Assembly (NCBI GenBank): GCA_945787585.1
Contig: CALZIG010000068.1
Coordinates: 1 to 11,492 of the forward strand
DNA from: an uncultured Gammaproteobacteria bacterium
GTDB taxonomy: Bacteria > Pseudomonadota > Gammaproteobacteria > SZUA-140
Direction: 5' to 3'
DNA: 11,492 bases
Of the stretch, positions 7,921-11,492 are shown one piece after another (position 1 is the first letter of the stretch; each line of letters opens with the position of its first letter). The notes under the pieces are model-generated. The model had not been told where the DNA came from. It ran no database searches and saw only the letters and a list, made by a program, of their open reading frames with translations. The translations under genes and the position numbers were made by a program.

Positions 7921-8946
7921 ATGGCCTTTCCGTTAGACTGGCCGCGCGCCTATGGCGATCCTCCGCTGCGTGGCGTGATCCGTTCAACTCCGGAAGATTT
8001 TCAGGTCGATGAAGTGCTGGGTTTCGTAGCGGATGGCGATGGCACTCACGCCTTTCTAAAAATACGAAAAAAAAATGCCAACACCGAATGGGTTGCCAAG
8101 CAGTTGACCCGGTATGCGGGTGTGCGCCAGGTCGATGTGGGTTACGCCGGGTTGAAAGATCGCCGTGCAGTGACCACGCAATGGTTCAGCGTCGATCTTG
8201 CCGGGCACGAAGCGCCTGACTGGCCAGCGCTAAAAGAGGGTGGCATTGAGTTTATCGAGATCACGCGTCATCGACGCAAACTAAAACGCGGTGCGCTACA
8301 GGGTAACCGTTTCAAGATTGTGGTGCGTGAGGTTGAGGGCGATCTTGAGGCATTTGAACATCGTCTTTTACAAATCGCGAGCGGCGGTGTTCCCAATTAT
8401 TTTGGTGAGCAGCGCTTTGGCTTTTCAAACCTTGAAAAGGCAACAGCGATGTTTACAGGGCAATTGAAAAAGGTACGTCGTCCCGATAAAAGTATGTACC
8501 TCTCTGCCGCTCGCTCGTGGCTGTTTAATCAAATCCTGGCGGCACGTGTTGCGTCGAACACATGGAATCGCCCAATGCCGGGGGATGTGATGATGCTGAG
8601 TGGTACGCAGAGTATTTTTGCGGTTGAAACACCGGATAGTGAAATCGAACAACGCATCTCTGATTTAGATATTCATCCCACGGGTGCGATGTGGGGCAGC
8701 GGTGAGTTGGCTTCAATGCTGGAAGTGGCCGCACTGGAAAAGAGCGCCGTTGAAAGTGATGCCCTTTTATGTGATGGGCTAAAGCGGGTAGGGCTGAAGC
8801 AACAGCGCCGCTCACTGCGCCTGATGCCGTTGGATTTACAGTTTAAACAGCTTGACCCGCAATCGATCGAGTTACAGTTTGAACTGCCTGCCGGGAGTTA
8901 TGCGACGGTGGTGTTGCGGGAATTGCTGGCGTATACCGCCCGTTAA
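7921..8946 (+). CDS. truD: tRNA pseudouridine(13) synthase
   Basis: TruD isomerises uridine 13 of certain tRNAs (tRNA-Glu in E. coli) to pseudouridine. The catalytic Asp80 sits in the family motif YAGLKDRRAVTTQWFSV. Other conserved stretches are the start (FPLDWPRAYG), EDFQVDEVLGF, GTHAFLKIRKKNANTEWVAKQL, LKRGALQGNRFKI, GGVPNYFGEQRFG and the C-terminal LRLMPLDLQ and LPAGSYATVVLREL. The 341-residue length is near E. coli 349. The codons for RKKN contain a run of nine A (8067-8075), a possible slippage site. The gene starts three bases after ispF. In many relatives surE follows; here the next sequence is A+T-rich, non-coding and leads into gene cassettes, so truD is the last recognised gene of the conserved operon in this window. 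Confidence 0.96.
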   Translation: MAFPLDWPRAYGDPPLRGVIRSTPEDFQVDEVLGFVADGDGTHAFLKIRKKNANTEWVAKQLTRYAGVRQVDVGYAGLKDRRAVTTQWFSVDLAGHEAPDWPALKEGGIEFIEITRHRRKLKRGALQGNRFKIVVREVEGDLEAFEHRLLQIASGGVPNYFGEQRFGFSNLEKATAMFTGQLKKVRRPDKSMYLSAARSWLFNQILAARVASNTWNRPMPGDVMMLSGTQSIFAVETPDSEIEQRISDLDIHPTGAMWGSGELASMLEVAALEKSAVESDALLCDGLKRVGLKQQRRSLRLMPLDLQFKQLDPQSIELQFELPAGSYATVVLRELLAYTAR

Positions 8947-9007
8947 AGGCATTCGTTCCAAACCTAAGCGCAACGCACACCCCTGAATAATGCCGATGCG
9001 TAATATG

Positions 9008-9020
9008 CGACAAAATGTCG
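9008..9020. repeat. Palindromic half-site copy 1 (CGACAAAATGTCG)
   Basis: CGACA and TGTCG arms flank AAA. With its flanks it matches 9179-9191 (CGACAAAGTGTCG) over a wider stretch: both are preceded by ATAT plus one base and followed by T-R-T-T. Together with the inverted copy at 9202-9213 this gives three copies of one motif in about 200 bp, which suggests a protein-binding site or transposon-end repeats. Confidence 0.55.
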
Positions 9021-9047
9021 TATTTTTCCAGTGCTAAAACCTATTGG

Positions 9048-9069
9048 AACATTAGTAATTACTAATGTT
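9048..9069. promoter_or_regulatory. Perfect 22-bp palindrome, operator-like
   Basis: The left arm AACATTAGTAA is the exact reverse complement of the right arm TTACTAATGTT. A further half-site CTAATGT recurs at 9086-9092, 24 bp after the one at 9062-9068. The two right-hand half-sites coincide with the -35 and -10 of a candidate promoter. This layout fits a repressor or autoregulator operator, but no regulator gene is present in the window. Confidence 0.4.
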
Positions 9070-9097
9070 TGGTCAATTTTAATCGCTAATGTATTAT
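9069..9097 (+). promoter_or_regulatory. Candidate promoter toward the cassette genes
   Basis: TTGGTC (9069-9074) and TATTAT (9092-9097; five of six consensus bases) lie 17 bp apart. The -35 is weak (three of six). Transcription would begin near 9104 and run through the 34-bp palindrome into cassette 1. CTAATGT half-sites overlap both elements. A role like the integron cassette promoter Pc is possible but unproven. Confidence 0.35.
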
Positions 9098-9179
9098 TAA
9101 TTATGAAATTAATTTTAAACAGCGGTAGCATTGTGATGAAAAAAGCTATTTCGCCAAAAAAATGTCATGAGGGATATAC

Positions 9180-9213
9180 GACAAAGTGTCGTGTTATAAC
9201 ACGACACTTTGTC
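9180..9213. repeat. Perfect 34-bp palindrome upstream of cassette 1
   Basis: Arms GACAAAGTGTCGTGTT (9180-9195) and AACACGACACTTTGTC (9198-9213) are exact reverse complements around a central AT. As RNA this would be a very stable 16-bp hairpin, but no T-run follows. The palindrome contains CGACAAAGTGTCG and its inverted copy, both related to the site at 9008-9020. It ends 7 bases before TATAGT (9221-9226), a five-of-six -10 match lying across the cassette junction, so it could be an operator. A mobile-element end or a protein-bound recombination site are alternatives. Confidence 0.65.
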
Positions 9214-9235
9214 ATCTACTTATAGTTAGATTGCA

Positions 9236-9271
9236 ATGAAAGTCCGAGTTAATAATAAGGGATGTAGATAA
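9236..9271 (+). CDS. Short leader ORF of cassette 1 (11 codons)
   Basis: The frame ATG 9236 to TAA 9269-9271 encodes MKVRVNNKGCR. Its stop overlaps the main gene's ATG in TAATG. It starts 10 nt after the cassette's first base, the same offset as the leader in cassette 2, and it contains the AAGGG (9257-9261) that can serve as ribosome-binding site for the main gene. The 11-codon ORF in class 1 attI, known to enhance cassette translation, is a precedent. No ribosome-binding site is visible before 9236, so translation of the leader is inferred only. Confidence 0.4.
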   Translation: MKVRVNNKGCR

Positions 9272-10689
9272 TGAGTAATGAAATTACTGTTACATCACAA
9301 GGTCAAGTGACCACTGGTGTAGACCAGTTTACAAACGGATTAACAGCATATTTAGGGGAGCTTGGATTACCTTCCGAACAAGTGTTGGTTCCTGTTGGAG
9401 AACGTACACGTGTAATTAACAATCTCCCTGAAGTAATCACTCTTGTCGATCCTGCTCAACGTATTACGTCAATTTACCTTTCAAAATTTATAGCTGCGTG
9501 CGGTGCGGGCCTCTTTGATGCTGCGCTTAATTTCATTTGGGACGAAACAGTACTCAACTTACGCAAAAAAGTAGCTCGCTTTGATATAGAGTATTTCTAC
9601 GACAGCGTAGTTACAGATGAAAACAGACGAAAAAAACTAAGAAGCGAAGATGACCTCGTAAAACTAGACGAGTGGGAGCTAGTCAGGGGATGCCACTTAA
9701 CAGGGATTCTATCTGATATTGGATATAAGCATCTCGATTACATTCGTGATATGAGAAACTGGGCAAGTGCTGCCCACCCTAATCAAAATGATCTAACAGG
9801 ATTTCAATTAATCTCCTGGTTGGAAACATGTATCAAAGAGGTTATAGGTAAGGAGCCTGAAGGCCCTGCCATTGAAGTTAAGCGCTTCTTGGCGAGTATC
9901 CGAAATAATACATTGAGTGCCGTAGATGCACAGCATATCAATGCAGGATTGGAGCATTTACCAACCGATTTGGGAACCTCTTTGCTGAGGACTCTTTTTG
10001 GTATGTACACGGCACAAGCGGCGCCTATTCAGATTAAAAACAATATCCGCATGGTTTGTGTGAAAGCTTGGGAAATGGCTCCTGAGGACTCTAAGTATGA
10101 GTGCGGATTGAAATATGCCACATATGCCTCCAATGGTGAAAATGATAGAAAAGACGCAGCAAATGAGTTTTTGACGTCGGTTGGCGGTTTGCCTTATTTG
10201 CCCAAAGATACGCTAGCGGTTGAAATCTCCGAAAAGGTTAATAATCTTTATATTGCGCATACGGGTTTCAACAACTTCCACAATGAACCTTCACACGCAC
10301 GACTTTTGGATTCATACATATCACAGACCGGTACAATCCCTGATTCAGTAAGGAAGGTATATGTTAAAACTGTTGTAATGGCAAAAATAGGGAACGGACA
10401 TGGAGTTTCAGACATGGCAACCTCATATTATGACAGTATGCTCTCAAAATTTGGTGAACAGGAAATTCGAGAGTTTGTATCGCTTTTGGTAGACCGGGAG
10501 TTTTCTTCAAGGGTTTGCTTAACTTCGTGCCGAGGTGGTTATAAAAATCTAGCTACATATTTTCAAGCAAGGACTACAAATCAAATAAGTCTCCAGGCTC
10601 TTCAAACAATATTGACTGCAACTGATCAACAACTTCCAAATCTAGGCAGAGATACTAGATATACTCAATTGCTTGGCAGCTATGTATAG
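9271..10689 (+). CDS. Cassette protein of unknown family with HEPN-like motif; candidate defence RNase
   Basis: I do not recognise this 472-residue protein. What is visible: no signal peptide, no clear membrane helix, and mostly helical sequence. An Ala- and aromatic-rich helix lies at about 67-100 (AACGAGLFDAALNFIWDETV). Arg162-Asn163 is followed five residues later by His169 in MRNWASAAHP, matching the R-[polar]-x(4-6)-H catalytic motif of HEPN RNases, where an upstream long helix is also usual. The remaining ~270 residues hold no motif I can name; they are helical and may be repeats or a sensor. HEPN proteins often act as toxins or in abortive phage defence, and integron cassettes can carry such genes, so a defence role is a reasonable inference, not shown. 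The ATG at 9271 has AAGGG nine bases upstream and overlaps the leader ORF stop. Codon use is A+T-rich compared with truD, consistent with transfer. Its attC follows within three bases. Confidence 0.8.
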   Translation: MSNEITVTSQGQVTTGVDQFTNGLTAYLGELGLPSEQVLVPVGERTRVINNLPEVITLVDPAQRITSIYLSKFIAACGAGLFDAALNFIWDETVLNLRKKVARFDIEYFYDSVVTDENRRKKLRSEDDLVKLDEWELVRGCHLTGILSDIGYKHLDYIRDMRNWASAAHPNQNDLTGFQLISWLETCIKEVIGKEPEGPAIEVKRFLASIRNNTLSAVDAQHINAGLEHLPTDLGTSLLRTLFGMYTAQAAPIQIKNNIRMVCVKAWEMAPEDSKYECGLKYATYASNGENDRKDAANEFLTSVGGLPYLPKDTLAVEISEKVNNLYIAHTGFNNFHNEPSHARLLDSYISQTGTIPDSVRKVYVKTVVMAKIGNGHGVSDMATSYYDSMLSKFGEQEIREFVSLLVDREFSSRVCLTSCRGGYKNLATYFQARTTNQISLQALQTILTATDQQLPNLGRDTRYTQLLGSYV

Positions 10690-10691
10690 CA

Positions 10692-10803
10692 ATCTAACAA
10701 AAGCAATTAACACGGACATTTTTCCGCGGCGTTTTCTTGTGCTAAAAGAGCCTAGCACAAGAAAAACACCGCTACAAAATTCCGGTTATTGCTGGCGTTA
10801 TGT
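10692..10803 (+). other. attC recombination site of cassette 1
   Basis: All parts of an integron attC are present. R'' is ATCTAAC (10692-10698, fits RYYYAAC). A 4-nt spacer AAAA precedes L'' GCAATTAAC (10703-10711). L' GGTTATTGC (10784-10792) is followed by spacer TGGC and R' GTTATGT (10797-10803, one base off GTTRRRY). L'' pairs with L' except for one extra T, the extrahelical base that sets strand polarity. Inner pairs CGGA/TCCG and ATTTT/AAAAT continue the stem. The long hairpin arms GCGGCGTTTTCTTGTGCT (10726-10743) and 10754-10772 pair with one mismatch and one bulge around a 10-nt loop. Recombination would occur after G10797. At 112 bp it is within the usual attC size range. Confidence 0.85.
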
Positions 10804-10807
10804 GGCC

Positions 10808-10834
10808 ATGAAGGCGAACGGTATTGTTAACTAA
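10808..10834 (+). CDS. Short leader ORF of cassette 2 (8 codons)
   Basis: The frame ATG 10808 to TAA 10832-10834 encodes MKANGIVN. The stop overlaps the main gene's ATG in TAATG. It starts 10 nt after the cassette's first base, exactly as in cassette 1. An even shorter frame, ATG-TGG-CCA-TGA (10800-10811), starts inside the attC R' box and overlaps this start in ATGA. The main gene has no close ribosome-binding site of its own, so reinitiation from this leader is a plausible route for its translation. Evidence is positional only. Confidence 0.4.
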   Translation: MKANGIVN

Positions 10835-11361
10835 TGAACGAATTTAAAAAACTCATAGAGTCAACACATAGAGGGCTTGGAGTCCCTGAGGACTACCAAG
10901 AAAAATATAGCCTCACTCTACAATATGAAGAAATTGACTTGGTTGAAATTGAAAATGATATTTATGGAAGACCACAAAAAGCAGCAAGAGTTGTTGCCGA
11001 GGCATGGCCTCAAATGAAAGCCCAGGCAGCAAGAGAAGGTGTCGTCTTAAATTTAGTATCAGCGTTTAGGTCCGTGGACAAACAAGCAGAAATAATTAAA
11101 AGAAAAATAAATAGCGGTGCTCGAATAGAAGAAATATTACAAGAATGCGCCGCCCCTGGTTACAGTGAGCATCATTCTGGCCGCGCACTAGATTTAACCA
11201 CATCTGGGTGTGAGCCTCTTACAGAGGCATTTGATAAAACAGAAGCATTTACTTGGTTGCAAGATAACGCCAATTTATTTTCGTTTGGGCTGTCGTACCC
11301 CAAGGGCAATAAATGTGGTATTGCGTATGAACCATGGCACTGGGCATTTAATGAGAGTTAG
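10834..11361 (+). CDS. M15-family (VanY-like) D-Ala-D-Ala metallopeptidase
   Basis: This 175-residue protein belongs to the zinc-dependent M15 peptidases, which cut D-alanyl-D-alanine or other peptidoglycan stem-peptide bonds; relatives include VanY, VanX and some phage endolysins. Visible motifs: SAFRS (residues 76-80, the conserved substrate-binding arginine), S-x-H-x-x-G-x-A-x-D at 111-120 with zinc ligands His113 and Asp120, and EPWHW at 166-170 with catalytic Glu166 and zinc ligand His169. All key residues are present, so activity is likely. There is no signal peptide or membrane helix, and an acidic ~50-residue N-terminal region precedes the domain. It may therefore act inside the cell, be released by lysis, or be exported by another route. 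The start is set by the TAATG overlap with a leader ORF; no good ribosome-binding site is near. It lies alone in cassette 2, and codon use is A+T-rich. Whether it serves wall remodelling, antibiotic or toxin resistance, or phage-related lysis cannot be told from sequence. Confidence 0.85.
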   Translation: MNEFKKLIESTHRGLGVPEDYQEKYSLTLQYEEIDLVEIENDIYGRPQKAARVVAEAWPQMKAQAAREGVVLNLVSAFRSVDKQAEIIKRKINSGARIEEILQECAAPGYSEHHSGRALDLTTSGCEPLTEAFDKTEAFTWLQDNANLFSFGLSYPKGNKCGIAYEPWHWAFNES

Positions 11362-11363
11362 CC

Positions 11364-11370
11364 ACATAAC
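11364..11370 (+). other. R''-like core of the cassette 2 attC
   Basis: ACATAAC is the exact reverse complement of GTTATGT, the sequence formed by this cassette's first bases and the integrase-conserved G. It lies three bases after the gene stop. It departs from RYYYAAC at one position, the mirror of the departure in GTTATGT, so the two would still pair. The rest of the site is not recognised. Confidence 0.5.
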
Positions 11371-11410
11371 CTCTATATGACCGCCCCTGTCAATAGCACG
11401 AGCCAACCTA

Positions 11411-11437
11411 AAAGCGGTGAGTAATCACCGTTTTTTT
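11411..11437 (+). terminator. Rho-independent terminator after cassette 2
   Basis: CGGTGA (11415-11420) and TCACCG (11425-11430) form a perfect 6-bp stem with loop GTAA, followed by seven T (11431-11437). AAA precedes the stem and can pair with the first T residues. It would end transcription from the cassette genes. The remaining ~55 bases to the window end hold no gene or motif that I can support. Confidence 0.85.
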
Positions 11438-11492
11438 ATTAGTACAAGTCATGCGCCTACTGCGAACCTGTTAAACGGTTTTGCAGAGCAAC

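Follow-up and report, generated by a model that had tools for sequence, protein, structure and literature searches.

We report that two gene cassettes lie behind truD in the genome of an uncultured gammaproteobacterium (assembly GCA_945787585.1, here G000), and that this locus is very probably an orphan attI site, i.e. an integron attachment site without an integron integrase gene (intI) in cis, with two captured gene cassettes. The window, i.e. the whole stretch of DNA that was analysed, is the entire contig C68 (CALZIG010000068.1; 11492 nucleotides, nt). The assembly totals 2.36 Mb, is split into 321 contigs and is 86% complete. Integrons grow when an integron integrase (IntI) recombines a circular cassette, through its attC, with attI at G^TT; repeated insertion builds an array in which the newest cassette lies nearest attI. 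The gene that we take to be truD carries this name from an initial annotation, which was made from the sequence alone. The features that define the locus are as follows (window coordinates; E, expectation value; R1 and R3, covariance models described below):

7921..8946, plus strand: truD, an open reading frame (ORF) and the last gene 5' of the array, with a match in 22 of 39 genomes searched, its own included
8995..9231, plus strand: attI leader, with homology to the sequence immediately upstream of IntI on contig C4 of the relative G003
9001..9020, plus strand: left motif TAATATGCGACAAAATGTCG, part of which recurs in the palindrome
9165..9230, plus strand: attI core by model R1, 91.5 bits, E 5.7e-17, the window being among the six sequences of the model
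9180..9213, no strand: perfect 34-nt palindrome, the arms of which covary
9225..9231, plus strand: attI/cassette 1 junction, G^TTAGAT
9226..10797, plus strand: gene cassette 1, with 10-nt matched ends
10692..10803, plus strand: attC of cassette 1, R'' ATCTAAC and R' GTTATGT, 46.5 bits, E 3.8e-9 (model R3)
10798..11370, plus strand: gene cassette 2, to its R'' end, with 10-nt matched ends

The truD stop codon is at 8946 and is followed by two genes with cassette ends. These had been placed directly after the housekeeping operon; they do lie beside truD, but truD and cassette 1 are separated by 278 nt (8947-9224), most of which is attI. Specifically, 49 nt past truD begins a region of 237 nt (8995-9231) that aligns with the DNA upstream of an intact IntI on G003 C4 at 69.7% over 241 columns (E 3.5e-22). 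The homology runs in the attI orientation and both sequences stop at the G^TTAG of the first cassette, and G^TT joins the first cassette in the window as well as in five other aligned attI copies. Judged from these alignments, 8995-9231 is almost certainly an attI.

The core of this attI is described by R1, a model of 66 positions built from six sequences, and contains the palindrome. In the six copies 91.7% of the cells in the 16-pair helix are standard pairs, and seven of the 16 pairs are changed on both sides. The covariation score is 0.471 as compared to 0.162 (standard deviation 0.043) in shuffles, with none of 500 shuffles reaching the observed value, and sliding the partners by 1-3 columns as a control gave 0.037-0.087. 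Since the arms covary, the dyad has been kept while its letters change, which fits the site of a lineage-variable protein or a folding strand. The left motif is closer to the palindrome arm in the same copy than to those of the other copies, a weak trend among five copies (4 of 120 permutations were as good). A covarying palindrome beside the cut site points to how attI and integrase may recognise each other. We also noted strong inverted repeats, with different letters, before the cut site in the attI regions of G002 C59 and G003 C53, which go with another IntI clade.

Both cassettes have exactly matched ends, as expected of the two halves of one attC, in which a GTTRRRY-like start is answered by its reverse complement at the end. 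For cassette 1, GTTAGATTGC at 9225-9234 returns as its exact reverse complement, GCAATCTAAC, at 10689-10698, while GTTATGTGGC (10797-10806) and GCCACATAAC (11361-11370) form an exact 10-nt inverted match for cassette 2; when the downstream sequence was shuffled, 10-nt matches arose in 3 and 4 of 3000 shuffles for cassettes 1 and 2, respectively. The attC was scored with R3, a model of 13 sites from genus relatives that excludes the site in the window. R3 detected no further attC in the window, the only other match (E up to 10) being 10692-10803 read on the opposite strand (E 0.18). With another attC model, R2, G000 has four matches at E up to 0.5, and the site in the window alone is below 0.01; R1 and R2 contain the window's own sites, and its scores with these two models are therefore not independent. 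Cassette 1 has a complete attC (R''-L''...L'-R'), and cassette 2 has the R'' only and no recognisable attC. Thus, the contig has one attC and then ends, the default for a cluster of attC sites lacking an integrase (CALIN) in IntegronFinder 2.0 being two.

Hence much of the initial annotation is borne out: two accessory genes with matched cassette ends, a complete attC that is accepted by a model built without it, the junctions G^TTAGAT and G^TTATGT as seen in the sequence, and a window that lacks an integron integrase, with no IntI ORF in the window and no TIGR02249 match on its contig. On the right, where a search for more attC sites had been suggested, a repeat follows 11370 and the contig ends at 11492. 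The term integrase-less is correct for the locus and incorrect for the genome, in which a single gene, on C152, is detected by PF00589 as well as by TIGR02249 (341 amino acids, aa; 434 bits, cut-off 265). This gene is near an ORF that we read as guaA, and the first cassette there has an 8-nt matched end. C152 (L026, 139-2493) thus represents a second integron, with IntI, an attI region of another type and a cassette with a DUF2846 protein. No integrase that fits the truD attI was found in the 86% complete assembly of G000. Since PF00589 finds nothing else and both XerC and XerD are missing, the assembly is incomplete and a fitting intI may simply be absent from it.

The attI type at truD is not confined to the window. 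Within the genus, nine full-length R1 matches with E below 1e-12 are present in five of the ten genomes, six of the nine being the training set of the model: the window and C202 (G000), C74 and C138 (G005), C141 (G009), C4, C9 and C49 (G003) and C21 (G002). Intact intI is present at C4, and stubs at C9 and C49. In the remnants at C9, C49 and C21 of G003 (L216, L217 and L031, respectively) intI breaks or has a gap at nearly the same codon, at about residue 36. On G003 C4 (L148, 6703-6940) a fragment matching the 3' end of the guaA-like ORF of G008 lies behind the intact IntI; at least there, the platform thus appears to have moved from that locus together with part of its neighbour. C202 in G000 and C74 in G005 represent the same place, beside an ORF that is presumably glgC, and their first cassettes begin differently. 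C202 (L221, 2519-4651) is a second orphan attI in the window's own genome, in which a GNAT gene follows the matched ends of the first cassette. At the genus orphans these ends match over 11 nt (C202), 9 nt (C138) and 8 nt (C9); at C74, C4 and G002 C21, where the script started one base off, none were reported. By eye, sequences resembling group II introns or reverse transcriptases lie in, or end, arrays on G005 C74 (L185, 11920-12681) and G002 C63 (L160).

In the family, R1 matched (E up to 0.01) in eight of 20 genomes, with four sites outside the genus. Two of these are directly upstream of an IntI ORF (G010 C37, 257 aa and probably frame-shifted; G016 C39, 320 aa) and two are without IntI (G016 C56 and G019 C21). 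At the class level there were matches (E up to 0.01) in 28 of 369 genomes, G000 and G003 included, and all 39 full-length sites outside these two genomes were examined for IntI using tblastn with four IntI queries (E 1e-6). Eleven have an IntI match in the left flank. Nine of these are directly beside IntI, which is on the opposite strand with its nearest end 102-247 nt from the core; the other two matches are 511 nt away (G064) and partial and on the same strand (G027). The remaining 28 sites have no IntI match in a left flank of at least 3.4 kb. With the stricter cut-off of E up to 1e-4, for which 0.04 false sites are expected from these rough E-values, 21 sites are retained, seven with any IntI match (five directly upstream) and 14 without. 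Among the 28 IntI-less sites 16 have at least 900 nt of right flank, and half of these (8/16) show a first-cassette match of at least 8 nt, the chance of which was estimated to be 6% per site. Matches to attC at E up to 0.05 were found at 6/28 IntI-less and 6/11 IntI-matched loci. IntI also adjoins an R1 site in G737 and G427. In the phylum, six of 398 genomes, G000 included, have an R1 match at E up to 0.001, all from the same class.

In three genomes that consist of a single contig (G098, G100 and G737), orphan sites are far from a site that has IntI and a very similar core. In G098, IntI and its attI are near 879 kb and an orphan is at 212 kb; the two cores are 95% identical over 64 nt and the flanks of the two sites gave no further alignment at E 1e-3, and at the orphan the first cassette shows a 9-nt match and an attC is present. 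G100 has IntI at 434 kb and orphans at 1.98 and 2.18 Mb, with which the attI of this IntI shares 93% and 91% identity, respectively, over 58 nt; the class search missed the attI of this IntI and, therefore, R1 undercounts. G737 has IntI and attI at 3.43 Mb and an orphan at 0.81 Mb (three differences in 67 nt, counted by eye) with an attC at E 4e-8. G279, also a single contig, lacks an integron integrase, the one weak match there resembling a Xer protein, and has two orphans that agree at 91% over 82 nt. For 53 sites in 34 genomes the median core similarity (percent, gap-penalised) is 84.1 for the 28 within-genome pairs vs 58.3 for the 1350 between-genome pairs, and none of 2000 label shuffles reached the within-genome mean. 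Recent copying could explain such alike cores, but then the flanks should align, and they hardly do so in G098, G034 and G279; in G052 and G028 they align over some 230-316 nt.

At truD itself, the relatives differ. A truD match is present in six of the nine other genus genomes. G003 has a broken intI, with stops and deletions, tail to tail with truD. In G002, truD is followed by a 294-aa ORF and then, about 1 kb past truD, by a cassette-like unit, the ends of which match over 9 nt and which has a weak match to attC (E 0.18); there is no R1 match at this locus. The G005 contig stops 97 nt past truD, and the truD contigs of G008, G004 and G006 have no match to the IntI, attI or attC models.

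How could cassettes have come to stand here? An integron integrase would have cut the truD attI at G^TT and inserted the cassettes successively, such that the latest arrival would adjoin attI. The intI may formerly have been positioned between truD and attI and then deleted, as the broken G003 gene at the truD position might illustrate, or it may act from elsewhere in the genome. No intI was found in cis, and the truD locus falls short of a complete integron accordingly defined. As far as sequences can tell, evidence from the family is of both kinds: intI stubs in G003 and, elsewhere, orphans that share a genome with a distant integrase. Because cores are alike within a genome while flanks often do not align, we view the orphan attI sites of some genomes as possibly being retained as additional docking stations, served by an integrase from another locus. 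We therefore put forward, tentatively and at slightly worse than even chances, a distributed integron in some Gammaproteobacteria: one integrase would use several attI docking sites behind unrelated genes, each with a short array, and the core palindrome would have co-evolved with the integrase, been copied around the genome and been kept by selection or conversion. If true, integrase-less arrays would be outposts and not ruins. Service of the orphans in trans, read from the distribution of sites and integrases, is in our view somewhat short of probable.

A number of observations weigh against this account of the orphan attI sites. The C152 IntI of G000 falls, in a comparison of eight sequences, in a different clade from the enzymes that are paired with the window's attI type, and R1 has no match on C152; with an own integrase of another clade and another attI, the truD site may now be idle. 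For G002 C39, which encodes an IntI of the fitting clade, R1 gave no match within the 1500 nt searched. The stubs on G003 C9 and C49 fit the loss of intI from complete integrons, as do 30 nt near the G052 C186 core, the counterpart of which in C187 is past the 3' end of intI. Two orphan cores of G071 score 93 mutually but 59-63 against the two IntI-bearing cores of this type, the IntI-bearing site of G737 has ATTAG instead of GTTAG at the junction, and C202 is well conserved in its right half only. Moreover, the R1 E-values are rough, with about four false sites expected among the 369 genomes at E up to 0.01, and the tblastn test behind the 28 IntI-less sites can overlook short stubs.

A rival account is that of a relic, i.e. 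a once-complete integron at truD that lost intI, leaving a static array and an attI out of use. Such loss, to which we likewise assign not quite an even chance, is in line with the broken G003 intI at truD, the C9 and C49 stubs and the G052 C186 piece from beyond the 3' end of intI, and with the description of CALINs as "degraded integrons", a view quoted in the part of PMC9024848 used here. It accounts less well for cores that are alike within genomes though flanks are often unaligned, and for the glgC site, at which the first cassettes of G000 and G005 begin differently. The initial annotation had offered the edge of an attC cluster lacking an integrase, and among its options this one comes nearest; it is incomplete, as the cluster has its own attI. 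The distal end of a chromosomal integron, also offered, is contradicted because attI marks the proximal end.

Alternatively, the palindrome leader might be a promoter or an RNA hairpin that travels with arrays and not an attI. It could form a strong hairpin (-28 kcal/mol) in the 5' leader of the cassette transcript. Yet the leader ends at the first cassette junction and, in intact integrons, lies between IntI and the first cassette, and we consider this reading quite unlikely. Even less can be said for cassettes that inserted at a chance chromosomal G^TT (attG) beside truD, without attI. Cassette arrays distant from intI do exist and attG insertion has reportedly been published (Loot 2024), but the target here is 237 nt homologous to a true attI (E 3.5e-22) and belongs to a dispersed family of which 9/39 class-level members are directly beside IntI. 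Insertion at attG was hence rejected, and with it the suggestion of a chromosomal target outside any integron. Nor is there a truD/surE junction that could act as a landing site, as had been proposed: in the window's genome surE (PF01975) is on C155 behind an ORF that we read as nuoN, and the order is the same in G009. Finally, that misassembly or mis-binning fused an integron to the truD contig is hardly credible, since, although the draft has 321 contigs and the contig terminates in a repeat, a broken intI is found independently at truD in G003, a unit resembling a cassette follows truD by about 1 kb in G002 and single-contig genomes have orphans too.

A discrete mobile element with fixed ends was also considered, as suggested by a left edge of homology that nearly coincides among several copies and by the repeat at the right end. 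The fixed left end was dropped, given that faint similarity (CCTGAAT, by eye) runs outward in G003, G001 and the window, and that homology is nearly confined to the core in G098, G034 and G279.

The remaining features of the array are its two cargo genes and the terminal repeat:

9271..10689, plus strand: cassette 1 ORF, 472 aa, predicted to be all-helical
10834..11361, plus strand: cassette 2 ORF, 175 aa, VanY/M15 D-Ala-D-Ala carboxypeptidase family, PF02557, 117.1 bits (cut-off 25)
11371..11492, plus strand: repeat that replaces the remainder of attC 2 and runs to the contig end, similar to G005 C22, C155 and C110 and G001 C237

The cassette 1 protein has at least 1787 homologues and is widespread, e.g. 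in Pseudomonas and Vibrio records and on Streptomyces plasmids, and tblastn returned 77 plasmid records and no phage record. It matches phrog_27609, an uncharacterised group, and has no match in Pfam, NCBIfam or PADLOC. The structure prediction is all-helical with a pLDDT of 85.5; a fold search gave 398 matches at E up to 10 and none at E up to 0.001, and 31 homologues, out of 120 listed, gave no PDB sequence match below E 0.27. The block R-N-W-A-S-A-A-H, conserved as RNWASAAHPNQ, is invariant over 31 homologues and may, as a lead, resemble the motif of HEPN ribonucleases. An Rfam search of 8900-11492 gave six matches at E up to 1, all under the gathering scores. With respect to the repeat, it starts just past the TAAC of the R'' box in most copies compared, and ORFs near G005 C155 resemble, by eye, an IS200/REP-type transposase; the repeat itself may be an IS200/REP-type end, by which attC 2 was broken.

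How integrase-less arrays arise is debated, and orphan attI sites make both this question and chromosomal attI testable. Our data suggest that spare attI copies far from the recombinase represent a new origin for such arrays, and a covariance model for one chromosomal attI type provides a per-genome test of relic vs chance insertion vs outpost in trans. In the literature searched, which covered few subscription papers, no report of orphan or multiple attI sites was found. In the parts of the publications drawn on here, attI sites other than those of class 1 are said to be poorly described (PMC9024848), non-cognate attI/IntI pairs are said to be generally inefficient (PMC8946536), and excision or capture of CALIN cassettes by integrases acting in trans has already been proposed (PMC9668308).

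With sedentary chromosomal integrons the truD locus shares attI, the G^TT junction, a single cassette orientation and a housekeeping neighbour, but it is without intI in cis, and attI of one type occupies two or more loci in several genomes. Insertion of cassettes at attG, reportedly described by Loot et al. in 2024, also places cassettes away from an integron, whereas the truD target is an attI and not a divergent chromosomal site. As in CALINs there are cassettes and attC with no intI nearby; the differences are that a recognisable attI heads the truD array and that the contig has one complete attC vs the default two (PMC9024848, in the part used). The CALINs of Xanthomonas are likewise intI-less arrays at recurring chromosomal places in many strains, which is taken as a sign of ancestral integron activity and contrasted with scattered attG insertion, but no attI is mentioned for them in the portions of PMC12444791 consulted. 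Lastly, delta-attI-type cassettes of mobile integrons, as presented in the consulted portions of PMC12901181, resemble the truD type in having attI sequence outside its usual place; there the attI-derived sites are inside cassettes, whereas the truD type is an attI that heads chromosomal arrays.

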